A stretch of DNA of 64,000 bases, from contig CM071568.1 of the NCBI GenBank assembly GCA_036426205.1, positions 40,513,221-40,577,220 on the forward strand, in the 5' to 3' direction. The stretch is from Ascaphus truei (Eukaryota; Chordata; Amphibia; Anura; Ascaphidae). Position numbers and translations under genes: made by a program. Under the pieces are notes generated by a model. It made no database searches and was not told the DNA's origin. It saw only the letters and a program-made list of their open reading frames with translations. Positions 5,200-61,209 of the stretch are shown in pieces. Position 1 is the stretch's first letter. Each line of letters opens with the position of its first letter.

Positions 5200-6308
5200 T
5201 GAGCTCCTTTGCGGGAGCTCACCTTTACAGGGGGTGTGTGGAGTCCCCCAGACTATACTCTAGAGGGACTATACTCAGTGATATCCCTAGCGCGGAGTGA
5301 CATTTCTGCCTTTCGTGTAAACTGGCAGATAGCTAGTATTAGTCACATCCTACTTTTGAGCTGCTCACTGCTCACACATTATGCTAATCTAGCTATTAGC
5401 ATATCTCACGGGTATCCCAGGTGTGCTCCTCAAGGAACATTAAACTGTCAACCAGGAAGTGGAAGTGAAGGTACACTACCAAACATAGTGTAAAAGGGCA
5501 GGCAGGCTGCCTACCAGCACAAGTAGAGATAGGTGAACAAAAAACAAATATTTGCGGTCCAAATTTTTATATATTCACTCTTCTCTACTGGAAGGTGCCA
5601 TAGGGCAGGGGTGCGTAAACTTAAGTCTGCGTCCCCTGCCTGCTCTCCCCCTCTGCTCGTGCCCTCCCCCCCTTACCTGTTCTCTAGTGTCTCCTGAAGT
5701 CACAACGACATTTGACGCCACATTGCCATGGCGACACATCGTCAGAAGCCGCCAGTGACCAGGTAAGCGAATTTACAGAGGTCTCACATGTGCTCCGCGA
5801 TATTTCATTTAAATGCTTTGGGGAAGAGCATGGGGCCTCTGTAAGCACCACCCCCCTGCAATATTTTGCACCCACCAGTTTGCACACCCTGCCTTAGGGT
5901 ACAGACTGCTGAGTAAATATGGCCAATTACCTCTCATGCATCTACTAGGTGGTGCTAAATACAACTTCTGGTCCCAGAAGATTGTCCATTCAAGTCAATA
6001 TGCTGCAAGATGTCTTCCAGCACCACTTAGTAAATATATGCCTTCATCGTTAATCTCTATTTTATTATTTCACGTATCACTGTTAAAGCCAGCACATCCA
6101 TTAACTAGCTTATGTACATTGTAGTTTTCCACAATATATTTCTGTATTGCTGTCACAAATTCCACATTTTAATACAGTACTGTATATTCATTCTGAAATA
6201 TTCACTGTGATACATTCTATTATAGAACAAATACATTGATGAAATGCTTGCCTTTCGTTTTGAAAAGAGCTTTGCATAAGCCATTTGTGTTGCTGATTCC
6301 AGCAAATG
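5200..6308. other. unassigned sequence
   Basis: No gene, LTR or transposon end is recognised. ORFs here are short and without known motifs. The stretch from about 5900 to 6045 has mirrored AGTAAATAT words but no convincing terminal repeats. Confidence 0.4.
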
Positions 6309-6546
6309 ATTCATATTTCACAATAAATATATAATTTTGAAAACAAATTTACATATAAATGTATAATCAGTATCACTTTAGAATGTCAAATGTGCCCTTT
6401 ATAGAAGCTTTTATAGATACCATCTGTTCTTACCAAGTGAATATAATTACAGGTAAAATATTTCCTCTTTATTATATTCATTAAAAAATACCGTATAGCC
6501 TATATTAGATCCAGCTAATAAAGTTTGTTCCCTGCAATTTACAGTA
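6309..6546 (+). repeat. left copy of a diverged direct duplication
   Basis: About 235 bp match 7728-7965 in the same orientation, including AAATATATAATTTTG near the start and GATACCATCTGTTCTTA in the middle. The copies differ by substitutions and small indels. It is either an old local duplication or two copies of an unknown repeat. Each copy carries one private TACAGTA or TACTGTA insertion. Confidence 0.75.
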
Positions 6547-7727
6547 CCAATGCAATATAATATATTCATAACCATTTGTTCCATGACTTGCAAATTTATG
6601 CATGACTGTTTGTACTGTAAATGTGGTCTCCCATTGGAGTTAATGGGTTAATTCCTCAATACAAGTGTATTGTGTCTTCTCCGTAGGATACAGACCTATC
6701 TTAGCTAGGGAGTGTGGCTGCAGGCTAAATTGTAAATGGCAATAAATTCTTAGTCCCTTCCGCTCTTCCCCAACCTCTTCCTTTATTGAAAAACCTCTGG
6801 GCAGGGTGACTTCTTACACACCCAAAACAGGGGTGCCTGAAACAACATGTTGTTCCCCACTTGCAATTGCCGTCGTTCAACACACTCCTCTCACAGAGTT
6901 GGTAAATTGCCAGGTGTGCAGATGAAGGGGCGGGCAGGTAGGGCACGTGCTCAGGGTGCCAACCAAAAGGGGCACAGCTGCCAAATCAAAGGTAAGGGCA
7001 GCACACGCCCTACCAAGTAGCAGTGTCGGCGGTGTAGGGAGAATAGAATTTGTCTTGCTTCTGAAGTCCTAGTATGTAAGGGGTTAACGTTTGTCTTTTA
7101 AGTAAATGCGGATGGTTGCTGTAATAATGCTTACTGTTACTGTAGTCGTGCTTACTGCTGCTGTTATAATCTAAAAGTACCAGTAAATAGTTTGTTGTGA
7201 GTTGTGATAGCATGGATGGAGCCCCTCTACCCCCCTTCCCCTCCCCCCTCCCAACCCCCCCATTTCCTGAGCCTGTTTCCTCACAGTCACACTATATATG
7301 CCTGTCTCGGACACAGGAAAAACAGAACCTCATCCAGGGATAAGGCTAACAGTGAAGCTGTTTGTGTCTGGGACAAAAGCCATTGCAGATAAACAACTTT
7401 AGCTACAGTACCAGGCATCTGAAGAGATGTGGGGCTTCCCCTGGTTAACTGTGTGTGGTATCCTGCCTGCTGTAAGCTGCATATAACAGAAGCCAAGTAC
7501 AGTATTAATAAACAATATTTGACTAACAATTGGTGTGGATGTATCCATGTGTATTCGTTGGTTATATTGACAATCCGAACAAGCATTTCCTGTCAGCACA
7601 GGTGGCGTGTACTGCGCGCCGCGCCGACACAACTGCGGGGGAGGGCGGGGGACCTCACATGAGTGTGCTGGCGTAGTAGGCTCACAAATGGCGACGGCAG
7701 TAGTTTGGGTAGGTTTTGCTGAAGACT
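6547..7727. other. unassigned sequence between the duplicated blocks
   Basis: Includes a C-rich run at 7225-7265. No coding motif or transposon terminus is seen. ORFs are short and unsupported. Confidence 0.4.
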
Positions 7728-7965
7728 CAGATTTCATAATAAATATATAATTTTGATAACAAATTTACATATAAATGTATAATCAGTATAACTATAGCAT
7801 TTTAAATGTGCCCTTTCAAGAAGCTTTTACAGATACCATCTGTTCTTAGCAAGTGAATATAACTACAGGTAAAATATGTCCTCTTTATTATTTATTCTAA
7901 AAAAACATATAGCCTATATTAGATCTACTGTAGCTAATATAATTTATTATGTGCAATTTACCAAC
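7728..7965 (+). repeat. right copy of the direct duplication
   Basis: Partner of 6309-6546, about 1.42 kb downstream. Where the left copy reads GCAATTTACAGTACC, this copy reads GCAATTTACC. Where this copy reads GATCTACTGTAGCTAAT, the left copy reads GATCCAGCTAAT. Confidence 0.75.
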
Positions 7966-13707: not shown

Positions 13708-14682
13708 TTACTCCCCCCTCCCAAGAGCATTCTCCGGACGATCCTTGCTAGGCTTGTCTGGATATCTCCGGTGGAAAGCTTTGACTAGTCGCGGAGCATG
13801 TAGAAAATCTTTGGGTTCCCAAGACCTCTCCTCTGGGCCATAGCCCCCCCAGTGAACCAGGTACTGTAGTTTCCCTCGGTGTAACCTGGAATCCAAAATT
13901 CTCTCCACAATGAATTCCTCTTCGTTATCCACGAGGACAGGTTCAGGGGGAGGAAGTCTCCGTCCAGGAAACGGATTCTCACGGAAAGGTTTCAGCAGAG
14001 AAGAATGAAACACAGGGTGTATTTTGATGGTCTCACGAAGCTCTAATCTGAAGGACACTGGATTTATTATTGCTGAGATGCGAAATGGCCCGATGTATTT
14101 TTGGCCCAATTTAATGGTTGGAACCTTTAAACATAGATTTCTTGTAGAAAGCCAGACTTTATCCCCGACTTGAAATTCTGGGGAGGGTCTGCGGTGTTGG
14201 TCTGCTGCTCTTTTGTACTTTACTTGAGTCTCACGAAGTGTCTCTTTGAGGGTCTCCTGGATGTCTCGCAGAATCTCCAGTTTCTCTGTAACTGCCGGAA
14301 TGGGGCCTGAAGATGGAAAACGAGGAATAAACGTTGGATGAAATCCATAATTTGAGAAAAAAGGACTCTTCTGAGTCGATGAATGATGTGAGTTGTTGTA
14401 TGAAAACTCAGCTAATGGTAGGAAATCAATCCAGTCATCCTGGAGATGACAAACAAAACATCGTAAGTATTGTTCCAAAGTCTGATTGGTCTTTTCTGTC
14501 TGGCCATTGGTTTGTGGATGATAGCCAGACGATAAATTTATACGAATTCCTAGTGGGGAACAGAAGGTCCTCCAAAATTTTGATGTGAATTGTAACCCTC
14601 TATCGGATATGATCTCATCAGGAGCCCCATGAACACTAATAGATACCAGAACAATCTCCTCAGGCAGCTCCAGGACTACCAT
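13708..14682 (-). pseudogene. chromovirus pol: integrase core 3' part and chromodomain
   Basis: Open for 324 codons. The N-terminal part carries the integrase signatures SDRG and YHPQTNGQTEKTNQ, holding the second Asp and the Glu of the DDE centre. A linker with the FxVGDKVWLS type motif follows, then a C-terminal chromodomain (FIVERILDSR..LVHWGGYGPEERSWEP, near residues 255-305). This places the element among Ty3/gypsy chromoviruses, whose chromodomain steers insertion to marked chromatin. Its upstream continuation is at 14765-16282, separated by an insertion of about 150 bp and a frame change. The stop is just before the purine tract and LTR. Confidence 0.9.
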
Positions 14683-14780
14683 TTGGACAATTGTATCAAA
14701 GGTAATTTCTATAAGAATTTATTTGGTTGTTTGCATAAGCGCTGATTTCACACCTAATTTTTTTTCACCTAGGAGCCGCA
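14627..14780 (-). other. about 150-bp insertion inside the integrase
   Basis: The conserved integrase reading is interrupted between FRLH and HGAPDEI. The interruption is bounded by near-identical words AGGAGCCCCATGAA (14622) and AGGAGCCGCATGAA (14772), which look like a target duplication or a slipped duplication. On the minus strand the insert begins CTAGGTGAAAAAAAATTAGG. Its source is not recognised. Confidence 0.55.
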
Positions 14781-16282
14781 TGAAGCCGAAACACCTCTTT
14801 CACAATCAACTTGGCTGTCTGGTCTGCAGAAGGAAGATTCTGTGCTGCAATGAAGTGAGCCATCTTTGTAAGTCGATCCACTACTACCAGGATGGTATTA
14901 TGTCCACTTGATCGGGGCAGGTCAACAATAAAATCCATTGATATGGACCCCCAAGGACGAGCTGGAACCATAAGAGGCTGCAGCAAACCCACAGGTGATG
15001 CTCGAGGGGTCTTGGTCCTAGCACAAGTCTCACAGGAGAGGACATAGTCTTTAACATCTTGTGCTAATTTAGGCCACCAAAAAGAGTGAGACAACAGTTC
15101 CTGTGTCTTGAGGACACCTGGGTGACCAGCGGGTCGGGAGTTGTGCATTAATTGGAGCACCTCTAATCTTACCTCCTTAGGGACGAACAGACGGTCCTTA
15201 CAGTTCCACAGATCATCACATAGAAATAGTTCTGCTTCCGGGGGAGGGTTTTTAAGAAAAGAGTCATTTGAGTAGGCTCCCTTTATTCGTGTGAGGAGAT
15301 CGGCGGAGAATGTGACGCCCAAAAAAATTCTTTTAGGAAGAATATTTTCTTCTTGGTCTTTGTCTGAACTAGGATTAGGCAATGACCGTGACAAGGCATC
15401 TGCTTTCCCATTCTTGGAGCCAGGGCGGTATGAGATGTGGAACTGAAATCTTGCAAAGAAGAGAGCCCACCTGGCTTGTCGCGCAGACAGTCTCTTTGCG
15501 GATCGAATGAATTCTAAGTTCCTGTGATCCGTAAAGACCGTAATTGGGTGATTGGCCCCCTCCAGTAGATGTCTCCACTCAGCGAATGCAGCTTTTATAG
15601 CCAAGAGTTCTTTGTTTCCGATGTCATAATTTCTTTCAGCTGTTGACATTTGGTACGAATAAAAGGCACATGGATGAAGGAGCATCTTGGGTCCAATTCT
15701 TTGTGACAGAATGGCACCAACAGCAGAGTCGGATGCATCCACTTCCAAGATGAATGGTAATTCTGGATTTGGATGGATGAGGATAGGGGCAGATATGAAG
15801 AGTGACTTCAATTGTTCAAATGCCGCATCCGCTTCAGGAGACCATTTGAAGGGGAATTCTTTCCGTGTGAGTCGGGTGATTGGGTTAGGGGTGATTGGGA
15901 TTGGGTTGCCAGAGACATTTTTAATAAAATGTCTATAGAAATTGGCAAAGCCCAAAAATCTCTGAATGTCCTTTTCATTTCGAGGGATTGGCCATTCTAC
16001 CACGGCTTGAATCTTGCCTGGGTCCATACTCAAACCCTCGGGAGAGATGATGTAACCGAGAGATTGCATGCTGGTCTTTTCGAATTCGCATTTTTCTAAC
16101 TTGATGTACAATTTGTACTTACGGAGACGCTCAAGGACAATTCGGACATGTCTCTGGTGATCCATGATGTTATCAGAGAAGACTATGATGTCATCCAGGT
16201 ATGCCACTACAAATTGGTCCAATAACTCTCGGAGGACATCATTGATTAAATGCTGGAAGGTAGCAGGGGCATTACAGTCCAA
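14765..16282 (-). pseudogene. chromovirus pol: RT core, RNase H and integrase N-terminal part
   Basis: Open for 505 codons. Residues 1-90 carry the end of the RT palm with the catalytic YLDD box. RNase H follows near residues 145-270 (EVDASDSAVGAILSQ, VFTDHRNLEFI). The integrase zinc finger lies near 365-415 (HNSRPAGHPG, then CETC) and the first catalytic Asp in SMDFIVDLP. The frame breaks at the 5' end, where the N-terminal RT palm sits in another frame (16272-16526), and at the 3' end by the insertion above. The domain order RT-RH-INT is the ordinary Ty3/gypsy order. The product cannot be made intact. Confidence 0.92.
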
Positions 16283-16822
16283 AAGACATCACCAGATATT
16301 TATAGTGCCCATAACGGGGTTGGAAGGCTGTTTTCCATTCGTCACCGGGTTGAATGCGGACCAAATTATACGCTCCTCTGAGATCTAATTTGGTAAAGAT
16401 TTTGGCTAACCGAATTCTTTCCAATAGTTCAGGAATCAGAGGTAATGGGTACCTGTTCTTCACCGTAATCTTATTTAGTTCCCGATAGTCAATGCAGGGG
16501 CGTAGAGAACCGTCTTTCTTTCCCACGAAGAAGAGCGCAGCGCCTGCTGGATAAGTAGAGGGTCGGATAAAACCCTTTGACAGGTTCTCCTATAGGTAGT
16601 CATTGAGGACCTTCAATTACGGTTCTGAGAGGGAATAGATTCTTCCAAACAGAATGGCAGCACCCGGTAATAATTCAATGGGACAGTCATAAGAGCGATG
16701 TGGGGGAAGCGTATCCGCGTTCTTCTTGTCACACACATCTAAAAACTCAGAGCAGAAGATTATCTTGAGATGAGGAAATCTTATGTATTCCTACACACTC
16801 TGGTATAGGAGTTTTAGGTAGA
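16272..16822 (-). pseudogene. chromovirus pol: N-terminal RT and upstream linker
   Basis: 16526-16272 reads [20 protein letters not shown] and then [14 protein letters not shown], the RT fingers and first palm motif with its catalytic Asp. Upstream to 16822 the frame is broken by stops but still shows the linker expected before RT in chromoviruses, such as PPHRSYDCPIELLPGA and RIYSLSEP. It ends where a foreign solo LTR has landed. Confidence 0.85.
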
Positions 16823-26749: not shown

Positions 26750-28408
26750 CTAACCTTACTGTACCAGGATGCCTTCCCTGTCTAAGCAGTTTTGCAGGAA
26801 AACCTGTGTGGAGAGCTTGAGTCTAATACTGAGCAGGTTAATTCTGAGAAAACTGTCCTAATTTAAAAAGCCTGCAGCATTCACTGTATTCACAAGGGGA
26901 TCTCTAGACCTGGTGATAGCCTGGACTGCTGGAGAGATCAGAGCAACTACAGCTCTCTGGCCAGGAAGGTACAGTACTGAACCCTGGACTGGTGTTGAGA
27001 GAAATCCTTCCTGACTCCAAGAATTGGCAATCAGATTACTCTCTGGATCTACATCCTTCCTATGTTTACTTATTAGGTATATCAATGTATAATTTCCTTT
27101 CTAAAAAGATGTCCAACCTTTTTTTGAAGATATCTATTGTATCTGCCATCACAGTCTCCATGGGTAATGAATTCCACATTCTAACTGCCCTTACTGTAAA
27201 CAACCCTTTCCTTTGTTGCTGGTGAAATCTCCTTTGCACTGCCCTTGGGATGAATAATTCTATTGAAAGCTCCTTGTACTGTCCCCGAATATATTTGTAT
27301 ATAGTTATCATATCTCCTCTTAGACTCCTCTATTCTAATGTAAACAAATCTGATTTCATTAGCCTCTCCTCATACGTCAGATTATGCACCCCTTTATTAA
27401 TTTGGTGGCTCTTGTCTGCATTTTTTCTTGTTTCATAGTGTCTTTTCTATTGAGTGGTGCCCAAAATTGTACTCCATATTCAAGGTGTGGTCTTACTAAT
27501 GCTTTATAAAGGGGCATAATTATGTTTACTTCTATTCCATCCATTGCCCGTTCAATGCAAGATAAGATCTTGTTTGCCTGTGCAGCTACTGCATGACTTT
27601 GGGCACTATTGCTAAGCCTGCTGTCTACAAGCACTCCTAAATCCTTCTCCATCAAGGATTCCCCTCATTTACCCCCCTTTAATTTGTAAGTCACCTGTTT
27701 ATTCTTGTTTACCAACTGCATAACCTTACATTTATCCATATTAAACCTCATCAGCCATTTACCTACCTTAAGTTTCCAGTCTCTCCAAGTCCTTCTGGAG
27801 GAAAATTTCATCCTGCTCTGATTCTACTACCGTACACAATTTAGAGGCTTATTCTTTCAACTCTATCAGTGCTTTACCATGCATTGTGCATGGAAATCCC
27901 CATTCAAGTCAATGGGGATTTCTGTGAAGTTCGCTCGGTACAGCGCTAACAGAGCTGAAAGAATAAGCCCCTTAGTGTCATCAACAAAGATGAAGACTTT
28001 GCTCTCGATGCCAACCTCAGGGTCATTAATAAACAAGTTAAAAAGCAGGCGGCCCAGTACCGATCCTTGAGGTACTCCACTTACTGTACAACTTTAGCCC
28101 AACCTAAAACGGATCCATTTATGACAACTCTCTGTTGTCTGTCTTTCAGCCAGATTTCAATCCAGGTGCAAATATTTTTACTGAGTCCAATTTGCTATAT
28201 ATTTGTACACTAACCTTTTGTGTGCAACCGTATCAAAAGCCTATGCAAAATCTAAGTAGACCATATCCACTGAATTACCATGGTTTAAATTCCTACTTAC
28301 AACTTCAAAGAAACAAATAAGGTTAGTTTGGCATGATCTATCCTTCATAAATCCATGCTGACTATTACTAATAATTTTGTTTTCCATTAGATATTCCTGA
28401 ATATTATC
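26750..28408 (-). pseudogene. CR1 LINE: RT C-terminal half and 3' end
   Basis: Minus-strand frames show, in order, NSQHGFMKDRSCQTNL and MVYLDFAKAFDTV (RT palm), KDLGVLVDSRLSNSAQSHA, LVRPHLEYGVQFWAPLN (thumb/connection) and FTVRAVRMWNSLPMET near the C-terminus at about 27120. These are diagnostic CR1 order and spacing. Frames are broken at least three times and a Harbinger-like MITE sits at 27844. The CR1 continues on the far side of the inserted PLE pair at about 29490. Confidence 0.9.
27844..27971. mobile_element. Harbinger-like MITE in CR1
   Basis: Ends GAGGCTTATTC and GAATAAGCCCC are inverted. The flanking TTA is duplicated (27841-27843 and 27972-27974). Removing it and one TTA rejoins the CR1 reading. 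A 3-bp TWA target and GGG-type ends fit PIF/Harbinger. Confidence 0.8.
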
Positions 28409-28513
28409 CTGTGTTAAACACAAAATAGAGGAAAAGAAGGAGCACACAGGAGACTTGTTTTGAGTTTGAAAAAACTTCAATAAAGTATTCACAGCATCAG
28501 AGCTAATAAAGGT

Positions 28514-28545
28514 AACGTTTCAGGACTAATGTGTCCTTTCCTCAG
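28514..28545 (-). ncRNA. hammerhead motif, left PLE arm
   Basis: Minus strand: CTGAGGA, stem II AGGAC..GTCCT, GAAACGTT. Stem I pairs GGT with ACC. Same sequence as the right arm. Confidence 0.65.
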
Positions 28546-29083
28546 ACCCAGTACCTCAAGTGAAGCTAAACAAACAGCTTAAAATACCCCCATAATCACT
28601 CACCCACAGCACCACATGTGAAGGAAGACTGATCCTGCATAACTGTCTAATTACTTCCTGTATGTCAAAAATTGTGCTCCTTCTAACTTCTTCTTATATG
28701 GTTCCTGTCCCGCTGGTTTCCTCTCGTGGGGTCTGCCAACTTGACCATTTATTTAATGCTTCCTAAACTGAGAACTTTGTGATGTGTAAAACATATAGGA
28801 ATACCATATTGAGTGTTGTGATTGTTTGCATACGGTATATAATCAATTTAAAACCATGACTACTTTTAATTTTCAGCTTCACCCTGCACTCTTTGAGACA
28901 ATTGGACTCCTCTAGCTGGCTCAGCTCCTCCCCCTTTGTGCTACAAATACAGCCTTGCCCTAATCATCTAGTTCTGACTTGCCTCCTCCCCTTCAGTGAT
29001 CCAGATTGTGCAGCACTTTTGCTGTGCGATTTTCTAAGTGTTCTCTTTTTTTCCTTTGTTATTGTGTTTGTCTAGGTTGCCTA

Positions 29084-29136: not shown

Positions 29137-29248
29137 GAAGTAATTAGACTGTTATGCAGGATCAGTCTTCCTTCACATGTGGTGCTGTGGGTGAGTGATT
29201 ATGGGGGTATTTTAAGCTGTTTGCTTAGCTTCACTTGAGGTGCTGGGT

Positions 29249-33473: not shown

Positions 33474-34425
33474 TCTGGTTATTTAAAATCACCCATTATG
33501 CAAACATCACCTAGTTTTGATGCCTTCTCCATTTGCAAAAGTATTTTGGCTTCCTCAATCTCACAGATATTTGGGGGCCTATGCAGAGAGCAGCGCTATT
33601 TCGAAATTCGCCATTTTTTGGAGAAAATCGCGCAGAAAGCAGCAGAAAATGGCGAGTTCCGAAAAACGCGCCAATTTTTCTTTTCTATTTGTAAAACTCG
33701 CCTCGCGGCTGGCGAGAACCTCAATCTCGCCAGTTTTAAAAATATCCGTATGCAGAGAGGCGCGAACGGCATCTAGCGGCTGTTCGCGCCAATAAAATGG
33801 CGCGATTGTCTCCTTTTTGCCTCGCCAGAAAAAACTGGCAAGAAGCTGCCGCTCGCGGCCATTGCAAAGGGAAAAAAAAGGCGCGAATTTGTTTTTACAC
33901 GTTTCTGAAGCGCGCATCTCGCCAATTTAAACTCGCCACACGCATCCATGTTAAACATAGCAGAATTCGCACTTTTCTGCATATGGAGAATAAAACTCTC
34001 CAAAAAAGCTACTTTTTAATAAATTCGCCAATTTTAAAATTCGCTGCTCTCTGCATAGGCCCCAAGGTGTGTTATAGCATATCCCTACAAACATTTTCTT
34101 TGTAATTTAACCTACACTGCTAATTGTTATTCTTAAGGTCTCTACATTTTCATCATACCCTTCATAAACATCTTCCCTTATAATAGGTTTTTGATCCGGT
34201 TTAACATACAAGCATACTCCACAACCTCTTATTTTTTCGATCCTTCCGAAAAAGGGAATAACCCTCTAAATAAACTGACCAGTCTTGAGTTTCATCCCGT
34301 CATGTTTCAGTAATGCCTATGATTTCATACTGCTCCCTTGTAGCTATTAATTCAAGCTCCCCCATTTTATACAGTATGTCAGGCTTCTTGCATTTTGATT
34401 CATGAAGGTTATCCTGGAAAAACTA
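33474..34425 (-). pseudogene. CR1 LINE: endonuclease N-terminal part, split by a MITE
   Basis: Minus strand from 34425: QYEIIGITET (catalytic Glu region), then FVGICYNTP, and after the MITE (33574-34063) EIEEAKILLQMEKASKLGD and IMGDFK, the GDFN active-site motif. Several stops. This is the 5' end of the visible CR1; ORF1 is not recognised upstream. Confidence 0.82.
33574..34063. mobile_element. Harbinger-like MITE, GGGGCCTATGCAGAGAG family, copy 1
   Basis: 490 bp with inverted ends GGGGCCTATGCAGAGAGCAG and CTGCTCTCTGCATAGGCCCC. The interior has many TTCGCCA/TGGCGAA words in both orientations. Target duplication is unclear here but the larger copy at 50909 has TAA. Short ORFs on both strands are not genes. 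Confidence 0.8.
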
Positions 34426-35034
34426 TTGAATTCCCATAATTATCTTTGCGATTCACAAACTTTTTCTCGCCACTTCACATACAAATATATACAACATATA
34501 TTGTTTATGAGGCCATTTGTTAGTCACAAGTTCTTAGGGCCCTTGGCTATATTTTTCTATGACTTTTATGACTTCTATGACTTCTATGACACAATCAAAT
34601 TGCTTTTCCTACATTTCTTTTTTTGACACAAAGCTGATCTAAAGGTATTGAAATATATTCCATAATACTGTCCAGGAATGCATCAATATTATACAATAAT
34701 CAGACATAGCAAATGGGAAGTCAAAATCAAGTACAGTAGATACTGTGCAAAATAATTTTGGTTGAAGTGGAACTCATTACTATAAAAAGGCCTCAGTGTT
34801 GCAGAGATTGAAGTGTATGGAATATGCAGTATAGGTGAAACCATTAATAGTTATTCTCCCCAAGTACCTGTGTTTTTTCCTAACAAATTTGCATATAGTG
34901 TAGGTGTGCTGAATATTATTCTTGATATACTGTACTGTAGCTGAGAAAGATGGGCAGTCACATACTGTAAATATACAGTGCTCACCAATTGAGGATTCAG
35001 TGATTCTGCTCTACGGTTTGATGCATGTATGAAT
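34426..35034. other. unassigned AT-rich sequence
   Basis: Contains five of the TACTGTA/TACAGTA heptamers, including a doubled TACTGTACTGTA at 34928. No gene or transposon end seen. Confidence 0.35.
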
Positions 35035-37373: not shown

Positions 37374-38150
37374 TCACAAAAAGCACCCCAATTTTAACTC
37401 CTCATTTAGGCCACCGGGTGCCACCGTCCGTAACTCAAAAATGAGTCTGGCCTCTTGCTGTAACAAGGTTTTGCCCCTGTCCCCTCCCCGTGTAGGTACC
37501 GGGACCTGGAGTATAGGCATACACCTAAGTGTGGCTAGAGAATGTCTCTCTTCTTTAAAATGTCTGGCAACAGGAAGACATTTCAGGTTCATGTCACCGG
37601 GCCCACTTGCTAGGGCTTTTCTGATTGTCGTACGATGCATAGCCATTCGTTCTTTGAGCATTCTCACGGTCTTGCCAATGTCCAGGAGTCCGCACAGGCA
37701 TTTGATGTAGTAAATCACAAATTTGGATTCACAATTAAGTGCTTGCTTAATTTTGATGGATCTGCCAGTATGTGGGTGATTGTAGCTCAGTCCTAGCTGC
37801 ATGAACTGGCAGTTTGTGCAGCCATGGCAACGATATGACCCGGGTTTTTTAGCCAACCAGGTTTTGGAGGTAGCATACTTTTCTATAGGGTCTGAACCAG
37901 TAACCATGTCTCCAATACTGGGCCCACCCCGAAAGCAGAACAATGGAGGTTCTTTGGCACACATACCCACTCTCTCAACGTTCTCCAGGATGCGCCAGTT
38001 GTTGCGGATACTTCGCTTGATCCCATTTGAAGCTGTGCTGAAGGTGCTGACAATGTTCAATCTGTTCGTAACCTGCCCAAGGGGTACTGATGTCAATAAA
38101 ACACTCCTGTCAATTTGTGTAACCTTCTGTAACGCATAACGGATATCTTT
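37374..38150 (-). pseudogene. Penelope-like element, GIY-YIG endonuclease end
   Basis: An open frame of about 255 relevant codons. A Cys pair motif RCHGCTNCQFM lies before the endonuclease, as usual in PLEs. The GIY-YIG domain reads VIYYIKCLCGLLDIGKT, then LKERMAMHR (catalytic Arg region) and LLQQEARLIFELRT (catalytic Glu). The usual YVG is DIG here. It ends GGLNEELKLGCFL, the typical PLE C-terminus. The upstream RT is absent: coding similarity stops at a TA repeat at about 38152. The first 30-40 residues of the open frame belong to the neighbouring hAT-like element. PLE proteins combine an RT and this nuclease for target-primed insertion. Confidence 0.88.
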
Positions 38151-38402
38151 ATATATATATACACATACAGTGCTTGACAAATCCGGTCGCCTGGTCGCCA
38201 TGGGTGACCGGATTTTGCCCACTGGTGATCCGTAACCCAAGCAGCACACGCGGTTCTCCTACAATTCCCCTGCTCTGCTGGAAAAACAAAAAATACCCCT
38301 AACTGATTTGTCTGCCGCGCTGTCAGGACTTTTTTTTTCAATCTGACTCTAACTTGAGCAGTGAAGCATGTCTTAACTTTTCAAACCTGCACATAGCAGG
38401 TA

Positions 38403-40449: not shown

Positions 40450-40600
40450 ACTGTGTGCTCATTTGCATGTCATTTCCCATAATCCCTTGCTGCAGTGGAA
40501 GTGCTGTGTGCTGGGTGATAATGGTGAAAGGTGGGGTTGCAGACCTGCCTAAGACATGCAAATGAGCATACAGTATATTTACATTTGAGATATATAGATG
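40446..40600 (+). repeat. copy 3 of the 400-bp hammerhead-bearing family, partial
   Basis: Matches the 3' third of the unit, from TGTGCTCATTTGCATGTCAT to GACCTGCCTAAGACATGCAA. It ends near a TA repeat (40609-40634). Confidence 0.75.
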
Positions 40601-40939: not shown

Positions 40940-40976
40940 TACCTTTTTTATTTTGACTAACAATTTATGTCATATG

Positions 40977-41001
40977 ACAAGCTTTCGAGAGTCCTCCTCA
41001 G
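40977..41001 (-). ncRNA. hammerhead-like motif, left arm
   Basis: Minus strand CTGAGGA then GGACTCTC then GAAAGCTTGTC. Stem II is shortened by a deletion, so it is probably inactive. Confidence 0.4.
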
Positions 41002-41125: not shown

Positions 41126-41269
41126 CTACAGTATGACAAATTGTTAGTCGAAATAAAAAAAGTATCACCTAATACTGAAGAACTCATTTATTCTACTCTA
41201 TCGCAACTGGACTAACACGCTATTTTCGTTTTATAATCAGCAGACAGGACTCAGGTAAGTCAAGTAAAT

Positions 41270-42475: not shown

Positions 42476-44895
42476 ACTTATTATAGTTATTTGTGCTATA
42501 ATCAAGCAATCACAGGCCAAGGGCAACAGAATGTCCTTGATGGGAACTCCATGGTGCCAGCCAGACCTCAAAACATACTGTAGCTATGCAGGAGACGATA
42601 GTCATTAAGAGCCACAGTAAATGTCAGTGACCGTAAAGAAATCAATTAGAAAGATTTTGTTAGTTAGAAACTAAGTAGCTATACAAGTAGTATGACAGAC
42701 TGAATGTAATATTAAGTGGGATATTACATTTTGTTGACAGTTCTCAATAAAAAACCACCAGGCAAGTCCTAATTAGTTTGAGACAGATTTAAATAACCTT
42801 AACACTCTCTATTTAACCGTGTCCGTTCAAAAACAAAAGTTGCTCTTTGGAAATTTACGAGGATAGTGTCAGCACTATCACAGTATTATGAATAATCCTC
42901 TGAAAGCATACCAAATAAGATCTATGGCATCCTCTCTTTCAATAATGGATTATTTATTTGAGACCGTAGAATCACTCATACAAGTACATTGTTCAAATAA
43001 TGAATTTCATGAAATCCATAAACTCCAGTTCCATGTAACCAGACATGTTACGTTTTGTTTTACTTAACTTTACTTCCCCTTTTCCCCATTGCAGTAATTC
43101 ATTGTGAAACAATACAGTTGGTTTTGGAGATATATTTACCCTTTGGGTGCCCTATAGACATCGTTACTATGGGATGGGGTCTGTCACTCCAGAGGCCCCA
43201 TGCTGTAGTGTCTTAATCTTCCTGCTCATTTTTGTAGGACAGATTGTTCCATCATCGGTGATGAAACGGACACATGATCGCAAGTGTGGCAGGCTTTGTA
43301 TTTTTGCCAGATAGATTTTTCTGCCTTAGCTTGAAAATAAATGAACGTCTTCATTTTTTTGTATAAAACAATTATTACATAAAAAATATTAAATATCCGT
43401 TGATATTGGGGCAGTATCTTGTCTATTTCAGTCCATGAGAACACTGATAAAAGAACATTAACCAGTATAAATGATTTTAGCCATAACTTTTACAGCCAAC
43501 ATATTGCAAGAATTGACTTGCTGCTGTTGGCTATTTTCCATATATCTTATGGCTCTATTGGGGCTTTAAATCATCATTATAAACCTGAACATAGCCATGA
43601 ACGATATTCTGAATTGCTGTCTCCTATGAGGGTAAAGTAATGTGTACTGGACTTTGGAAAATAGCCAACGTTATAATATATTTATGAATTGAAAATATAT
43701 ATATACGTTTTGATTATCCAGTCTTAAAGCCTCAGTATAAAAGGGTTTTACTTTCTGCATATGTCCTTTAATTTACAAATCAAGACTTTAGATTTTCAAG
43801 ATTTGTCATGCCGATTTCATGTTCTTGTGGAAGCTATTGATTACTTTCTATTTCTGCTGCTCTCTCTCAAGTGTATTCTTTCTGTTAAATTAAAGGTATA
43901 TGAACATACTATTGCTGTTAGCTAATTAGACTAAGTGATCGTTATTTATATTTTTGTAATATTGAAATTCAAGGTCAAATGAGTGACTTGTTCCATTCCT
44001 TAGGGAAAAAAAATATTTTCCATTTTATTTCAGAAATTCAAGATTTACAATTTACACTTGGGGCTGAAAAACTCGACCACATTAGTTCAAGGCTTGTACA
44101 GTATACTGTATGTGTACTACTATCCAAACTACACTCGGAAAGTCCATAACGACATTGGTTAGCATATACATTTAGGATACTGCTACTCTCTAACCCAAAA
44201 CAAGCTTTTGAAATGACTGATGTCCAAGCACATCTTTGAAAACCATAAAAAAAACATTTATACTATAAAAAAAAATTGCATCTAGGCTTCTGAATATAAG
44301 TTTCAACTGGCCAATGAAAACTTTAACATCAAGGAATTTTGGAATGACCATAGTGGAATAGTATTCCAAAAGATAAAGAGCAGATAGATTTCAGTTTTGC
44401 TGTTTGCCAAGTAGATAGTAAAGATAACTCTCCTCTGATAATAATATCTTTGTTGAATTCTGTACCCGTAGAAATCTGTTACAATGACAGTTCGGTTACA
44501 TTACAGTTACATTTTGAATGTTTCTATTTCTGTGTCTCTATTTCTAGGAGGTAGTTGTGAGAAATCATTGACTCGCAGTCAGTACCATGGAGAGTTCCTG
44601 TGGCAACAAGGGAAGATATCTGTAGGGGTTGCAGATCTCACTACCACAGTGGTCTGTTGCTTATGTTTGTACTGATTAGTGATTAAGTACTGAACTAGCA
44701 GTTTCAGGTGTAAAACAAAATCAGCATGGTTGGCACAGTACAATTTTTGCAGTATGCTGTGTCTATTGTAGATGTTAAGGAAAATGTATTTATATGTATT
44801 AATTTCCTTAAATCAGCTGTCGCAATGCTCTGGAAAAAAACAGACCCAGTATCAAAACAGTCAATAATTAAAAGTGTAATCATAATTTAGAAATA
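42476..44895. other. unassigned AT-rich sequence
   Basis: 2.4 kb with no recognisable gene or transposon. Short ORFs (up to about 70 codons) have no motif. It is probably unique intergenic or intronic DNA. Confidence 0.4.
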
Positions 44896-45262
44896 CAGAT
44901 GCAGCGGCCATTATTTTAACAAATTACGCGTGTATACCTCGGCATACCCATGTTATGGCGCGGGATTTCTTCCAACCGCACCGCCTTAAGACGCGAGTGC
45001 AGGCAAGTGCATAAAATGGCATTTTAGTGTTCTGGCTTTTAAACACCTGAAATTGATACAGTAGCACAGTTGCACAGTACTGTACACATTACAATTCATT
45101 CATTTCATTGCATTTAATTGCACACAATCCACAAAATTCAAACAAAGCAACCACGATAAACACGTGTGCCTGGGGCAATTGGCCGTGTTCATGCCGCGTG
45201 GAATAAAGCAGCGCCCACGAAAACGGCACCGTGATTTCTTAAAATAATGGCCGCTGCATCTG
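44896..45262. mobile_element. TA-flanked MITE, copy 1
   Basis: 367 bp. Ends CAGATGCAGCGGCCATTATT and AATAATGGCCGCTGCATCTG are perfect inverted repeats, flanked by TA on both sides. This fits the Tc1/mariner superfamily. The interior has no transposase. The second copy at 59476 is clearly homologous but diverged. Confidence 0.88.
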
Positions 45263-46164
45263 TATACCAGATGTATATTGGAGTTGCTGCAAACAGAAAA
45301 CAGAGCCATATAATATGTTATACTTTTAGTATTCCTTGTATTTCATAAATTGATGTGTATTGCCATTTAAATCTTTTGCTGAGGCACATTCACATAGTTT
45401 ACTTCTAATCTCCTCTAATCTTCTCTGGACCTAACTTGGAGAAAGTAACTGAGAATCTGTGCAGTCTGAGAGGGAACATACTAAGAATAGAATGAGAGGA
45501 AGCTGTAATTCCAGTCTGATTAGGTCAGTACCCTCACCTGGGAAGGAGATTTACTCCTGGTAATGGTAAGACAAAGGGCATTTTGGGACAGGAAAGAGTG
45601 ACCATGGCTATTATTTTTTATAAAATAATTAGGGAAGTGCTAATGAACAAACAGCCACATTTTCATATTGTATGTTTAGCTCAAAGTTGATGGCAATGCA
45701 TTCACTTAAATATTTCCATAATTGCATACTGCTGTTTCTGACATTTAGGCTGTTACCCGAGGAAGAAATTCTAAGCTGCAATAATGGGCAACAACCACAA
45801 AACTCACAATTACATATGTAGCAGCCTTCATTGTTCCCTTTTGGTGGGATATGTCGTGATATTCTGTGCCAATTCTACAATTGAATCAGATGGAAACAGT
45901 CAGGTCTGCTACATCTGTATTTTAAGTCATAAACATTATACTTTATAGACACTTACTGTACACAACAGTGTTTCATTTATAATATACAGTATTACAGAAC
46001 ATTAGAATATAAAGGCAATTTGTAAGTGAATACGTTTGATTATATATGACTGAATATACATGTATATATATATATATCATGTAGTAACCAGGGAAATCCT
46101 GATGACAGAAGACAACACACCGCAATAGTTGTCCATAGTTTTTTGGACAGGATATATATAGCCA
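45263..46164. other. unassigned sequence
   Basis: No recognisable gene or repeat. Confidence 0.35.
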
Positions 46165-48610: not shown

Positions 48611-48629
48611 CTTATTACAGTAGGTATTG

Positions 48630-48815
48630 TATTGTATGTCTTTATTTATATAGCGCCATTAATGTACATAGCGCTTCACAGTAGTAATACATGTGGTAAT
48701 CAAATAAATAACAGATAATATAAATAACAGATCATGGGAATAAGTGCTTTAGACATAACAGTAACATTAAGGAAGAGGAGTCCCTGCTCCGAGGAGCTTA
48801 CAGTCTAATTGGTAG
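48630..48815 (-). repeat. LINE 3'-tail repeat
   Basis: TTTATATAGCGCCATTAATG and CGAGGAGCTTACAGTCTAA; reverse complement of 55965-56150. Confidence 0.7.
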
Positions 48816-49785
48816 GTATGCCATTCTGTTTATGTAATTTGTGTAATTCTGTGCCCCAATTGTAGCACAAGAGAATATTGTGGCAATTTACAAATTAATA
48901 ATAATAATAATAATAACAAAACATTTATTTCTTGGTACTCAATGCTTTGATGCCTACAGACATTTAAAGCAGGATTGTGACTGAGATTCTGACCTACTGG
49001 GGCCTGTGTATCAAGGCAATTGTTAAAGTAACAAAACATTCTGTTCACGAACTTCTGTCTGAGGTTTAATATCCTTGCATTCGGGCAACCGACAAACTTC
49101 AGACAGAAGTTAATCAGCAGAAAAAGTCATAATGAATGCAAGGCTGCGGAGAATAGGGGAACTTGTAAGGCCAGTTCCTCAGAACTCCATTAACTCTGGG
49201 CTGATAATGGTCTGTTATTAAAATTGATCAGAGGCGTTATTTTCCCTGAGGTTAACAGCAATCAACAAAGCTAATTATATGTAAAAACAACTTGCATTTG
49301 GTCTCTTATTAATATAGACTTAACAGCATGTTAGCATGTATTAGCACAGGTGCATTATACATGTTAGCGGTGATACACACGCATTGACTTATATTAAGGT
49401 ACATACGCATTAAACCTGTCACACATGTGCAATGGAAAATATATCACGCATTACCTTTAGAGAACCAAGCCATGCATTCACATTACTAACATCTAATACG
49501 ACCCATGTGCAACAGAAATTAGGGTGCATGCAGGTTAGCATGTCTAACACGCGTGTATGTTACATCAGCGACCAATTGAAAACTTTAAAAAAAAGTTTAA
49601 ATACATGGTAATTACAGTGACATCCATTTCTCAGAGCACAAACCGGCATTCAGAAAGAAGCAAGCATCATGTGTCAGCCTCAGGATGCAGCCCCTGTTCC
49701 TTCTGCACAGGCAGGTAGACTAAGTATATAACACTTCACCGAGGATAAGCTAGACCTGATAATTAAAGGTATTGTAGATGACTTG
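48816..49785. other. unassigned sequence with an (ATA)n run and a foldback
   Basis: (AAT)n at 48895-48916. AACTTCTGTCTGAGGTTT near 49049 is mirrored by AAACTTCAGACAGAAGTT near 49095, beside GGGGCCTGTGTATCAAGG at 48999, which resembles a Harbinger-like end. The second end was not found. Confidence 0.45.
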
Positions 49786-52216: not shown

Positions 52217-52955
52217 GTCTTTTGTAATAATTTATTGTCCCATGATCTTTTTCTCTTTTGTTTCCATTGCATACTCTGTCAGCCTGTCTGATTAACCTCT
52301 GAGACTCCAGATAGGAAGAGAACTACAGTACAAGTCATACTCAAATTGTAATGTACCTGTACATGAATAATAATTGCAACATTTTTTTTACCTGGACTAT
52401 TTATAACAAATATACTTGGGTCAACTCGCCAAGGACATTCTTTCTTCTCTGCTCACATTTGGAGGTTAGTGGAACTCTCTACTGGACTCTGGCAGCTGAC
52501 TTTGGTATATCTATATTGGACTCTTTACCTTCCTACATTAACACTTTTAATTTTTATTACACTGTTTTTGTAATATATATTAGTAATAGTAGTTTAGTGA
52601 TAAGCGCTACTTTATCCTTTTTTTTTTTTTCCGCTTCTGAGGAGCCTGAGGTGCTAGATCTCTCGGTGCAGAGCCTCCAGCTATGAGGATCCCACGTAAG
52701 CGGGATTTGCTCCTCATAGGAAACAATATACTCAGCAATAATACTATCACAACGGCTGTGGTGTCACACACGTGTGACGAGCGGATGGGTCTGGAAGCGG
52801 ATAGACCAGAGGGCATACAGTTGTATGGGGCACTACAATCATGGCGATTCGGCTGTTTATACTGTACCATTGTACTACTTTTAAATATATCAAAATAAGT
52901 GTACTGCAACGTATTACTCACTGGCATTGCTGTGTAACTTACAGTGGCGACATTA
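52217..52955. other. unassigned sequence
   Basis: No gene seen. A T run lies at 52618-52630. ORFs are unsupported. Confidence 0.35.
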
Positions 52956-53260
52956 TTTATTCTTACACTTCCCGCACGGCAGATGCGTGCGGGAGCGTGG
53001 TGACGCGGCTTGTTGTGGCGCACTGTGACGTCACAGTCCGTGCTCGCCCGGCTTCCCCGACACCCCTGGAGTTTAAAGTGAGGTAAGCGGGGGTGCGGGG
53101 AAGCAGAGGGGCAGAGCAGGAGCCGGGTTCGGGTCGGGAGGGGGCTAAAATGCACCGAAGTGGAGGGGGGGGGGGGTGCGTGGAGGGAACGCGGCGGCAC
53201 GCGGTCTAGACTGGCGCCAGCCGGAGTAGATCCCGGCATGCCGCCGGTATTGGTGAGAAT
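52956..53260. promoter_or_regulatory. CpG-rich block with a CRE
   Basis: CpG-dense DNA with TGACGTCA at about 53027 in a longer palindrome CTGTGACGTCACAG, a donor-like GAGGTAAGC at about 53080 and a G run at 53165. It could be a promoter of an unrecognised element or a CpG island. No ORF around it has a known motif. Confidence 0.35.
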
Positions 53261-54210
53261 AAAGTATGCCGCTACTGTATGTGCTAACAGCCGGGCAGTG
53301 GTGTGCAGTATATATGTGTGCTATTTGAGCTGCGCTCTTACCCACAATTGTGTGTTCCCCCCTACATCTCCTCATTGGATATACCAATATAGTCTTTTTC
53401 ATTTAGGGGCTAATTTATTATCCACAGTCTTACATTCTGATACCCTTGTCTCGGCTCTGGGGATTTTTTAAGCCCATTTTTAACATTTCACTGTGTAATA
53501 TATGCTCATATCCTATTGCGTTGTTTATTGTATCTTATTTAAGTTTATTATTTTATTTTATATGGATAGAACACTGTTGTTCCTATTTCGTACATGGAGC
53601 AGTCGGTGGATTCAGCCTTTTGTGGGTATACCTGGTTGGGTCTCCCATTGTTGTACCGATTTGATTACACCTATGCAAGCAAGACCCTATTCTTTATGGT
53701 GGCAGGGACTTTGGAGTTCCGTATTGTCTTTAAAGGCGGGCCGCTTACTCTGGTCCCTCACTCCTACACTCTTCACTCTAGAAGGGGTTATATATCACTA
53801 TTTCATTTTATAACCGTGAGTGCATTAACTAGGGACTACTGTGACTATCTGGTTACAGTAGTAGTTTACAAGAAGACCCTAATAGTGTAAAACCTTTTAA
53901 TGAAATGGTAGCCATTAAAACAGTTACAGGCTTTGCAATTACCAAAAGGATTGTTTCTATGTGTTCTCTGTGTTCTATGTGTTCTCTTGTACTCATCCGT
54001 TCTACAGAGCCCCTTCAGATCACAGGAAGTCTGAAACGCACTGAAGAAGCAAGTACCTACCCCTACAAAAACCAACTATGGACTAATATCCAATGTTGCA
54101 GGATTATTTCCCTGTTTTTTCACCATTCTCCTTTATCATTGTTTTAGTGTTACATTGCAATAACTACTTCTTGCTGCTTTGTGGCATTAGCGTATTTTAG
54201 CTCACTCTAC
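53261..54210. other. unassigned sequence
   Basis: Possible decayed PLE tail near 54025-54060 (CTGAAACGCACTGAAGAAGC). Otherwise nothing recognised. Confidence 0.35.
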
Positions 54211-54214
54211 AATT

Positions 54215-57159: not shown

Positions 57160-57537
57160 TAGCAGATACACTATGTGGGGAGAAACAGGTACGGCTGGAC
57201 ATACCCTGTTACATACAGTATACAGTATTAAAAAGGATCCAATAAAGAAAATATTTGAATATATCTTTTCTATGTAGGTGATTTTCTTAAAAAAGTATAG
57301 GCCCATATTTTCTAAGCAGTCATCATCAGACATCTTCCGGCGCAAGAAACATCTACTGGCCCATTGATTTGAAACCAATGGAAGGTATCTTATGGCAAAA
57401 ATCTCCTTAGTAAATATGGCCCATAATCTTTAAAGTGAACTTGATTCTTTTTAGGAGTCACGGTAGTGCATTGAACATTGCTTTTAATATCCCACCGGTA
57501 TTGCATGAATAAATTAAACATTACTAAACTAAATAAA
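57160..57537. mobile_element. spacer with a possible small MITE
   Basis: At about 57299-57423, GGCCCATATTTTCTAAG and CTTAGTAAATATGGCCC form imperfect inverted ends of a 125-bp element flanked by ATA. The rest of the spacer shows nothing. Confidence 0.5.
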
Positions 57538-58310: not shown

Positions 58311-59204
58311 TAAATAATTAGCATTTAAAGATATACCAGTAAGGTAGACATGCTATATATTAAAGAACTGTAGCTGGCATTAAAGTTAAAAATAAAGAAA
58401 CAAAAAAGGAATACTGTACTGTATATTTCCCTTGAGAAAACATCTAGCTTTACACTTGTATGATACATAATAAAAGCTCAAAAAATGTACGCATTTTATA
58501 GCCAGAAAAGTCCCACAAAGGTGTTATAGACGCAGTACTTATGTAAATGCTCAAATAACTGAATGCTGAAAAAGTGGTACATTTGCAAACCAATTTTTAC
58601 AAATGTAACATTCACACATTATTATAACGCAGCCTCTACTTTTATGAGAAATTTGAATGAACTTTGCTGTAAATCATTTTATTCACATGTACTTGATGTA
58701 TATTCTTGTATTAATAAGTTGCTAAAGGCAATCAACACCTACTGTAACAACAAACGGTCCGGTAAATACCCAAACACTAGTGTTAATCTCTTTCCAATAA
58801 ATGGTAATGAATAAAGTTTATTAAGAGATCATATCTCTAAATAAACGTTCACCTTTTACACTAAAAGTCTTCTGAATTGTCGTTTTTTTTTTCCTTCATC
58901 TAAACTCTGCTCCCCGTGGAAGTCCGAGCACTCGTGGCAGATACTACTGGACTACTGTGAGCGCTCCTTTTGTACAGTATTCACAATAAATGTTAATACC
59001 GTTAATTAAGAGGAAATCGGACATATGTGAACCAGATCAAACTCAGTTTATCTCGGGTGTGCTAAGAGCTGTCCAGTTACCATTACTATCAACAGTGTTT
59101 TCATAAATAAATGCACTTGTGTTGGCTATTAAATTAGCTGTATGTCTCAGTTACTGATACAGTGCAATATAGTTGTAAAAAGTAATTATTACAATTGAGT
59201 AAAG
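58311..59204. other. unassigned AT-rich sequence
   Basis: Carries five TACTGTA/TACAGTA heptamers (two in TACTGTACTGTA at 58412). No gene recognised. Confidence 0.35.
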
Positions 59205-60780
59205 GTATGTATGTATGTATGTATAGCTTTATTTATATAGCGCCATTTATGCACATAGCGCTTCACAGCAGGAACACATTTGACATAATAATATAACACA
59301 TAATGGGAATAAACGCCTGAGACATAAAATTAACATTAGAAAAAAGGAGTCCCAGCCACGAAGAGCTTACAATTTATGTGGTGCATAGCAAGAACGTACA
59401 GAGACAGTTGGAGGGTGTTCTGGTAAGTGCATCTGCAAGTGGTCAAGGTTGATGTATGAGATATATACAGTAGTACAGATGCAGCAGCTGTTATTCGAAC
59501 ATTTCACGCGTTGTATACCTTGGAATATCCATGTCATGGCGCGTGATTTCTTCCAACCTTACCGCGTGTTGACTCATTTTTATTGAGTGCAGAAAATGGC
59601 ATTTTAGTGTTTTGGTTTTTAAACACCTGCAAATTGACACAGTAGCACAGTACTGTACACATTACAATTCATTCATTTCTGCCACGATACGCGAAGAATT
59701 GCACCCAAAGAAAACAGAATCCATGAAATTCAAACAAATCAACCACGGTAAACACAGGTGTGAATGCCGCGTGGAATACAGCAGAGCACACGAAAACGGC
59801 TCCGTGAAATGTTCGAATAACGACCGCTGCATCTGTATAAGTCACGGAGCTACCATATGCTTTGTTAAAAATGTGTGTTTTTAAGATGGGTTTTAAAGGT
59901 GGATATAGAGGGTGCTAGTCAGATATTGAGAGGATGGGCATTCAAGAGGTGTGGGGCAGTAAGAGGTTTTAGGGTGGAGAGGGTTTTAGATATAAAAGGA
60001 GTAGACAGAAGACGTCCTTAAGTAGAACGCAAGAGTCAGGATGATGTACAGTCAAAAATTAGGGCTGAGCTGTAAGGAGGAGCAGAAGAGTGTATAGTCT
60101 TAAAAGTGAGGAGAAATTTGTGTGTAATACGGGATTTGATAGGAAGCCAGGAGAGGGATTTCAGCAGGAGAGACGCTGAGACAGATTGAGGAGAGAGGAA
60201 AGTGATTGTAGCAGCAGTGTTTAGGATAGATTGAAGGGGAGACAGGTGAGAGACAGGAGGGCTGGATAGTAGAAGGTTACAATAGTCAGGTTACAATAGT
60301 CGAGACGGGAGAGAATGAGGGCGTATGTTAGAGTTTTAGCAGTAGAGCGACAGAGGAAAGAGTGAATCTTTGCAATTTTCTGGAGGAAAAAATTACATGT
60401 TTTAGATACAGTGGGAATGTGAGAGAAAAATGTGGGGGAGAATTGAAATGGGACACCTAGGCAGCATGGTTGTGATAGTGGGTGTATGATAGTGCTGCTA
60501 CATTAGTGTAGAAGGGGGCAGAAGGGTTTGGCTTGGGAGAAAATATGAGGAGCTCTGTCTTTGTCATGTTATGTTTGAGTTGGTGGAGGACCACCAGTTA
60601 TATGATAATGACCTTACTATGCACCAGATTCTGTATTAAAGCCAGATTTACAGAAATCCAGGACAGAGACTTTCAGAGACTTTGGTCTGTACAGCAGGTG
60701 TAAGGTATGGGGTTAAAAAGTAAATGTGTGTGTCATCAGCATAGAGATGATATCTGAACCTAAGAGATAAGATAAGGTAC
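59205..60780 (-). repeat. long LINE 3'-tail repeat with a MITE inside
   Basis: Begins TTTATATAGCGCCATTTATG and continues through GAAGAGCTTACAATTTATG. After the MITE it runs through a long G/A-rich noncoding stretch to TGTCATCAGCATAGAGATGA at about 60732. The other copies (35035, 48630, 55925) hold only its outer part. On the minus strand it would be the 3' UTR of an L2-like LINE; that is inferred from layout. Confidence 0.6.
59476..59835. mobile_element. TA-flanked MITE, copy 2
   Basis: 360 bp. Ends CAGATGCAGC and GCTGCATCTG, TA on both sides, interior homologous to 44896-45262 (shared GCACAGTACTGTACACATTA). It splits the LINE-tail repeat. Confidence 0.88.
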
Positions 60781-61209
60781 TTGTTACAGTATGTCATATA
60801 AAATGTGAGTTATATAAGAGTTATACAATATAAGAATATTATTATTTGGGTGGATTTTTCAAATTTTAGCATTAGAAATATGGAACTGTACATATGTTGC
60901 GTGTCTCTACCCTGGGTTGGGTTAAGTATTTTGCCTAACAAGCCTCAAAGGAGGACACACTTCCCACAAAAAACCCTGGCCTATCATTTCTCATGTACTC
61001 TTCTCTTCCATCACATTCTGCAGCAGAGATGGTAATCAGGGAATAGACCAGTGAAAAAACTACAGGACCAGTGTATGGACCTATTGCAGGGGATGGAAAT
61101 TATTTTTGCTGGCCTGAGACTTCACAAGCTCTGTGGGCCACACACTTAATGAAGATTAGTCGTGCACTTGAACATGCAAAAAATAAAGAGGATATAATTG
61201 ACATTATTC
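60781..61209. other. unassigned sequence
   Basis: No gene or repeat recognised. Confidence 0.35.

Follow-up and report, generated by a model that had tools for sequence, protein, structure and literature searches.

The 64,000 nt stretch of the Ascaphus truei genome analysed here (assembly GCA_036426205.1, contig CM071568.1, forward-strand positions 40,513,221 to 40,577,220; hereafter the window) carries the heptamer TACTGTA and its complement TACAGTA far more often than its composition predicts, raising the question of how this word came to be so common. The evidence makes it very probable that most of the excess copies are footprints left by the excision of Tc1/mariner-type DNA transposons and of their miniature inverted-repeat transposable elements (MITEs), with CAG...CTG ends. 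Repeat copies differ by a five-base gain at TA, which is almost exclusively of the CWG (CAG or CTG) type with both centres represented, the sites resemble Tc1 targets, compound words with unequal centres occur, and CAG-ended elements are present in the genome. We infer that excision took place in the germ line, and often, while any assignment to a particular element family would be provisional.

The window contains 76 heptamers (36 TACTGTA and 40 TACAGTA), in good agreement with a sequence-only reading of this DNA, which had put the number at about 75 against 12 expected. Mononucleotide composition predicts 11.3 and a Markov-3 model 15.7, while dinucleotide shuffles in 2 kb blocks gave 10.7 ± 2.9, with a maximum of 20 over 60 shuffles. 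No other TANNNTA word is over-represented to the same degree: the heptamer pair is the most numerous of them in the window (the runner-up, TAATATA, occurs 39 times), and its observed/expected ratio is the highest of all TANNNTA classes, both in the window and in 20 other stretches of the genome. The excess belongs to the exact word, TA followed by CAG or CTG and a second TA, with a ratio of 6.7 in the window compared to no more than 2.6 for every neighbour at one substitution; TACCGTA/TACGGTA is even rarer than expected. Pooled, these neighbours number 255 against 220.5 expected, a signal too weak to date the heptamers by their decay.

The places described earlier as poor in heptamers are indeed so. 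Positions 1-6172 hold one copy (at 2938), 60792-64000 and the 526 bp array none, and the chromovirus open reading frames (ORFs) one (at 13862). Seven regions judged to be young or coding (the chromovirus, a second gypsy-type element, the 526-base array, foldbacks and others), picked after the heptamer-poor places had been seen, together show 1 heptamer in 711 TAs compared to 75 in 3,915 TAs elsewhere in the window (Fisher, 7e-5). This fits scars that are older than those insertions, but does not establish the single, enormous past wave of excision that had been proposed.

The excess is also seen outside the window. The assembly comprises 2.82 Gb, and other stretches of the same genome are denoted by L-numbers (e.g., L034), with w: denoting the window. 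A first sample took 20 stretches from two contigs, each 10 kb long and with positions set by spacing (191,964 called bases), and a second added three further stretches, giving 23 stretches on five contigs (221,964 bases). The 20 stretches contain 110 heptamers against 33.8 expected, a ratio of 3.25, the next TANNNTA ratio being that of TAAAATA (2.09). In the 23 stretches there are 132 against 38.8 expected, so the claimed genome-wide excess is present on five contigs, although weaker than in the window. The raw density is 0.59/kb in these stretches and 1.19/kb in the window, and the estimate of about one footprint per kb holds for the window (an excess of 1.01/kb) but not for the 23 stretches, which average only 0.42/kb. 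Extrapolation from these 222 kb gives about 1.2 million heptamers above composition genome-wide, a figure that counts words and not independent scars.

Density across the 23 stretches is uneven beyond chance (chi2 61.7, 22 degrees of freedom; the values for five control words ranged from 12.4 to 31.5). Eight loci that were selected for a triple form of the word carry 7 to 24 heptamers per 3 kb. Two of these, L009 and L010 (3 kb each), have 24 and 22, with seven inside 74 bases at L010:2644-2717, a density that may point to local hopping or to TA-repeat targets.

The most direct evidence comes from an open search for five-base insertions in a repeat, family A, in which the inserted bases were left free. 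The empty form of its tested motif, CTTTATTTATATAGCGCCATTA, has 7,697 + 7,508 = 15,205 exact copies in the genome. Five free bases at two TAs of this motif were found at 47 places genome-wide, and in 43 of them the insertion reads CAGTA, CTGTA, TACAG or TACTG; the others are TATAC (two), CCGTA (one) and TTTTA (one). At the first TA, a search for a doubled TA separated by any triplet matched 28 places, comprising CAG (16), CTG (10), CCG (1) and TTT (1), and at the second there are 17 CWG insertions (11 CAG and 6 CTG), so that both centres occur at the same site in each case and the first TA accounts for 26 of the 43. One of the 43 (L023:358) had prompted the choice of the first TA, while no known case lay behind that of the second. 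Five free bases were also allowed within GCG|CC, a position in family A that is not a TA, and matched no place in the genome. The number of true events would be lower than 43, because two pairs of places, 9 and 12 kb apart, may be local copies. The scarred share of family A is 0.17% at the first TA and 0.11% at the second, whereas in the window the heptamer excess corresponds to about 1.4% of the 4,626 TAs; the low values may be explained by exact matching, which would favour young copies.

Comparison of related copies points the same way. Across the window and the 20 stretches, 7 of 31 heptamer sites face an empty TA in another copy, whereas this holds for only 4 of 397 other TANNNTA sites (Fisher, 1.4e-6). 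Rather than already carrying the heptamer, a possibility that the sequence-only reading had allowed for, repeat copies thus show plain TA more often at these sites than at controls. The remaining heptamers face an identical heptamer (11 sites, of which 9 lie within large duplications or the MITE), a substituted word (11) or something else (2). A second scoring, a model comparison covering the 23 stretches and the window, favoured an empty TA at 12 of 36 heptamers and 31 of 422 controls (Fisher, 2.5e-5). Inspection by eye covered the 12 heptamer cases, and the 31 control cases stand as scored. Under a stricter rule, set after the output had been seen and requiring that the score improve by exactly one five-base gap and that no copy be filled, the figures are 8 of 36 (including L030:4699) and 3 of 422. 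When the loci selected for a triple word were included, in an earlier pass, the counts were 16 of 90 heptamers and 2 of 402 controls.

Individual window sites with empty counterparts are given in Table 1. The gains previously described at 6540, against a duplicate, and at 7926, against a CA near 6511, were both recovered: the former by alignment and by eye, and as it lies at an alignment end its support comes from the MAFFT alignment and from the printed sequences, and it falls outside both scorings; for the latter an empty copy was found. The gain at 41127 against the foldback arm at 40974 is also present: it takes five gained bases and an additional two-base difference close by, and the site is empty-TA in the model comparison and not in the other scoring.

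An excision footprint contains two TAs and could be hit again, yielding the doubled word TACWGTACWGTA. This occurs at 85,997 places genome-wide, where composition predicts about 1,065. The reversed pattern is found at 1,500 places, and the C/G-swapped form TAGWCTAGWCTA, which has identical bases and identical TAs, at 394, making it 218 times rarer. In 50 listed places, all close to one end of contig C1, a hand count found the centres to be equal in 31 and unequal in 19, compared to the half-and-half expected from re-hits (p 0.12). Slippage by five bases, or a local sequence bias, could in principle lengthen such sequences without a transposase, and the predominance of equal centres is in its favour, as is TACAATA, a pentanucleotide-repeat word that also shows five-base offsets (9 pairs). 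Slippage by one unit is ruled out for the 19 mixed-centre places, however, and neither the rarity of the swapped control, the lack of insertions at the non-TA position of family A nor the flank preference described below would be expected from it; as a general explanation it is extremely unlikely. An overlapping run of TACAATA at L034:5035-5061, beside a family A copy, provides a control case of five-base repeats.

The doubled forms reported earlier at 6173, 34928 and 58412 are all present in the window, and adjacent pairs at 44097 and 57214 come in addition. Three doubled forms are no clear excess in the window alone, where the local rate of hits at TA would give 1.25. A triple word occurs at 464 places (206 + 258), its reversed control at none, but these were not used as independent events. 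One repeat family has a triple footprint built in (L007:1546, L006, L008 and L012), and one of its copies is longer by five bases (TTACTGTACTTAAA compared to TTACTTAAA).

The flanks of the heptamers are also informative. Each heptamer was replaced by a single TA to give a virtual empty site, and TAs within 600 bases served as controls; duplicated sites and known non-footprint sites were retained. Scored against CAYATATRTG, the target consensus of Caenorhabditis elegans Tc1 (PMC9635669), the 71 window sites gave 234 compared to 187.6 ± 11.3 (z 4.1), and the 109 sites of the 20 stretches 354 compared to 285.6 ± 13.3 (z 5.2). In neither set did any of 2000 control draws score as high. The preference for A at -3 stands out in both sets (z 4.2 in the window and 4.0 in the stretches), while Y at -2 is seen only in the stretches (z 3.3; window 0.7). 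The sites thus score like the Tc1 consensus but differ from C. elegans Tc1 in that the element is gone, and in that two positions are each clear in one set only, C at -4 in the window and Y at -2 in the stretches. For Sleeping Beauty, the published targets are ANNTANNT (PMC2756404) and, in Xenopus, ATATATAT (PMC3271037).

Elements with suitable ends exist in the same genome. As noted earlier, the window has a TA-flanked MITE ending in CAG; TA-flanked inverted-repeat elements with such ends lie at 44894-45264, 59474-59837 and 52940-53279 (Table 1); all nine CAGATGCAGC words in L005-L035 and the window adjoin TA, and the MITE at 44894-45264 is a possible source type of the CAG/CTG footprints. 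A TA-bounded relic of 1,656 bases at L034:1272-2927 has CAGTTAGG ends (CAG), inverted ends of about 234 bases that are 70% alike, and broken transposase pieces matching HTH_Tnp_Tc3_2 (3.6e-13, above its cut-off) and DDE_3 (1.2e-5 and 0.0041, both below the curated cut-off). It thereby combines the TA target site, inverted ends and Tc-type transposase domains of Tc1/mariner elements, and with related transposase pieces in L016 and L022, such sequences are found in 3 of the 23 stretches. The relic resembles vertebrate Tc1-type elements and MITEs in its TA sites, CAG ends, long inverted ends and Tc3-type domains, a placement at the level of type. Since no transposase was found in the window MITEs, their superfamily is assigned from TA sites and ends alone, leaving room for scars of another TA-targeting, CAG-ended element outside the Tc1/mariner superfamily. 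Such an origin is very unlikely, as the flanks fit the target consensus published for Tc1 and this genome contains a CAG-ended relic of Tc1 type.

Excision of Sleeping Beauty leaves three-base overhangs, which are closed by end joining and repair of a central mismatch. By analogy, an element here would insert at TA and duplicate it, and its excision would leave three-base end overhangs, CAG facing CTG. End joining would pair C with G at the outer positions, and the A/A or T/T mismatch in the middle could be fixed either way, converting TA to TA-CAG-TA or TA-CTG-TA with a net gain of five bases. Two papers (PMC4378557 and PMC3432063) give TACAGTA and TACTGTA as footprints of Sleeping Beauty, while PMC2874221 prints the footprint as TAG(T/A)CTA; the sequence here agrees with the first two. 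The footprints recorded in cultured cells and mouse tumours share the seven-base word, the five-base gain at TA and both centres with those of A. truei, but were induced by supplied transposase, whereas the latter are natural and sit in an assembled genome. The mouse genome has more than 300,000 such words (PMC4378557), which by our own arithmetic, from the size of that genome, is about 0.11/kb and not above chance, compared to the 0.59 and 1.19/kb found here.

A number of observations weigh against excision as the source of the heptamers. In the 20 stretches, AT-only TAAAATA outnumbers the heptamer (128 compared to 110), and TGCTGTA, one base away and not of TANNNTA form, has nearly the same ratio (3.06 compared to 3.25), its heavy clustering across stretches (chi2 434) being as would be seen for a local repeat. 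At 11 of the 31 compared sites another copy carries the same heptamer and no copy is empty, and at 13 neither state is seen. Of the 12 sites favoured by the model comparison, L017:8821, L030:4699, L032:4462 and w:45057 are doubtful by eye, the last being scored against a MITE copy that differs by one base, with a margin of 10 and one filled copy. A second repeat family, searched openly at one TA, gave two insertions genome-wide, neither of them a footprint, and C at -4 of the target consensus is significant only in the window (z 3.1; stretches 1.2). Judged by eye from the letters themselves, the heptamers at 45057 and 40569 are probably substitutions. Those at 45078 and 59651 are shared among MITE copies, so were inherited with the MITE, and that at 53273 forms a MITE right end and is not a footprint. 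Five of the eight triple-footprint loci that were fetched belong to one repeat family, so compound words have been multiplied by copying and their counts are not counts of independent events. The identification of heptamers as footprints is therefore supported overall, but some are MITE ends, MITE interiors or substitutions.

Several of these cases suggest that the heptamer could be common because repeat families carry it, either as MITE ends (which start CAGTA) or as internal sequence, and have been copied often. To the MITE end at 53273, the one inherited site represented by 45078, 59651 and L029:4810, and the triple loci of a single family can be added the heptamers near L017:5336, L017:5579 and L022:9894, which share flanks as if they were ends of a MITE starting CAGTAGTGCCGACG. 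Flank pairs with at most 4 mismatches in 14 number only 7 for the 76 window sites, however, no more than for random TA flanks (a mean of 14.4 pairs, including simple repeats); in the window and 20 stretches together, 19 flank pairs match at no more than 3 mismatches in 15. Even with the repeat context held fixed, 43 of the 47 open insertions are CWG. Repeat hitchhiking is ruled out as the sole cause by these two tests and is kept as a partial one; as the reason for the excess as a whole it is unlikely.

TACTGTA is also an enriched word of salmon 3′ untranslated regions (UTRs) and a candidate word in mammals, assigned to the microRNAs miR-101, miR-144 and miR-199 (PMC2774873, PMC1904458), so that the heptamer might be maintained by selection as a target for their seeds. 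The window copies are balanced between strands (36 and 40), and the excess is spread across stretches chosen by position, which rule out microRNA sites as the explanation; plain TA in sister copies and the doubled forms would also be left unaccounted for, and the chance that selection of this kind explains the excess is negligible. Salmon are rich in Tc1 elements. Footprints may add to the TACTGTA count in salmon 3′ UTRs (90 observed, compared to 31 expected on a genomic and 20 on a random basis), which was read as microRNA sites (PMC2774873, Table 4) and might deserve re-reading.

Excision removes its own evidence, so the copy number of cut-and-paste elements hides how often they have moved. 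No published genome-wide count of natural excision footprints was found in the available parts of the literature searched, with preprints and most subscription journals lying outside that search. Should footprints persist at some 0.4/kb above composition, they provide a tally of hops that left no element behind, datable by the age of the host repeats and revealing how the breaks were repaired; further consequences would be five-base gains that shift reading frames and microRNA seed matches arising by chance. A bolder proposal, plausible but one we stop a little short of favouring, is that the main cut-and-paste trace of this genome consists of around a million footprints, with two or three hits at many of the sites, that the majority of insertions never reached fixation because they were first excised, and the breaks end-joined, in the germ line, that hops exceed surviving copies, and that dense clusters reflect local hopping. 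Footprints, which are invisible to repeat annotation, would then act as a clock of transposase activity.

Table 1. Heptamer sites, compound words and repeat elements of the window (positions in the 64,000 nt stretch).
Feature	Position	Strand	Remarks
Footprint with empty copy	6540..6546	-	TTTA[CAGTA]CCAA; TTTACCAA in duplicate near 7955
Footprint with empty copy	7926..7932	+	GATC TACTGTA GCTAATA; GATCCAGCTAATA near 6511 (TA reads CA)
Footprint	28082..28088	+	three homologous copies elsewhere without the five bases
Footprint	34370..34376	-	two or three homologous copies (by scoring) without the five bases; TA reads TC in displayed copies
Footprint, foldback arm	41127..41133	-	absent in other arm (40970-40980) and further copies; two-base difference close by
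Heptamer, probably not footprint	40569..40575	-	two related repeat copies read TACAGGAA
Heptamer, probably not footprint	45057..45063	-	other MITE copy one base different (TA/CA)
Inherited heptamer	45078..45084	+	common to MITE copies (also 59651, L029:4810)
Doubled form TACAGTACTGTA	6173..6184	.	mixed centres
Doubled form TACTGTACTGTA	34928..34939	.	
Doubled form TACTGTACTGTA	58412..58423	.	
Adjacent pair TACAGTATACTGTA	44097..44110	.	as if each TA of TATA hit
Adjacent pair TACAGTATACAGTA	57214..57227	.	
TA-flanked MITE	44894..45264	.	perfect terminal repeats from CAGATGCAGC; CAG ends
Short TA-flanked MITE, CAGATGCAGC-related	45811..45919	.	one CAT and one CAG end
TA-flanked MITE	52940..53279	.	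terminal repeats CAGTGGCG/CAGTAGCGGC; right end forms heptamer 53273
Second TA-flanked MITE, CAGATGCAGC family	59474..59837	.	CAG ends
Family A repeat copy	48620..48818	+	carries tested motif CTTTATTTATATAGCGCCATTA; other window copies 35027, 55940, 59205

Two pattern searches gave nothing: a MITE-end pattern had four matches among viral contigs, taken as chance, and a frog-repeat pattern none among prokaryote contigs. Rfam, at gathering thresholds, gave no matches, including for the foldback element at 28419-29374 (arms of 206 bases, 99% complementary), in which we presume, by eye, a hammerhead-like core. A 294-residue open frame at 37377-38258 (minus strand) matches no Pfam family and by eye resembles the GIY-YIG end of a Penelope-like element, a tentative label. 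The tandem array at 30431-33070 consists of about five 526-base units that are approximately 95% alike by self-alignment, and is free of heptamers. Two pieces of gypsy-type retroelements with integrase-type domains lie at 62863-63876 (plus strand) and 13711-16288 (minus strand). The latter ends in a chromodomain-like sequence, PF00385 being present in most relatives among the matches listed, and in the best 120 matches to one chromovirus ORF the named organisms are all frogs (Leptobrachium, Xenopus, Ranitomeya and Ascaphus), at identities of up to 64%.

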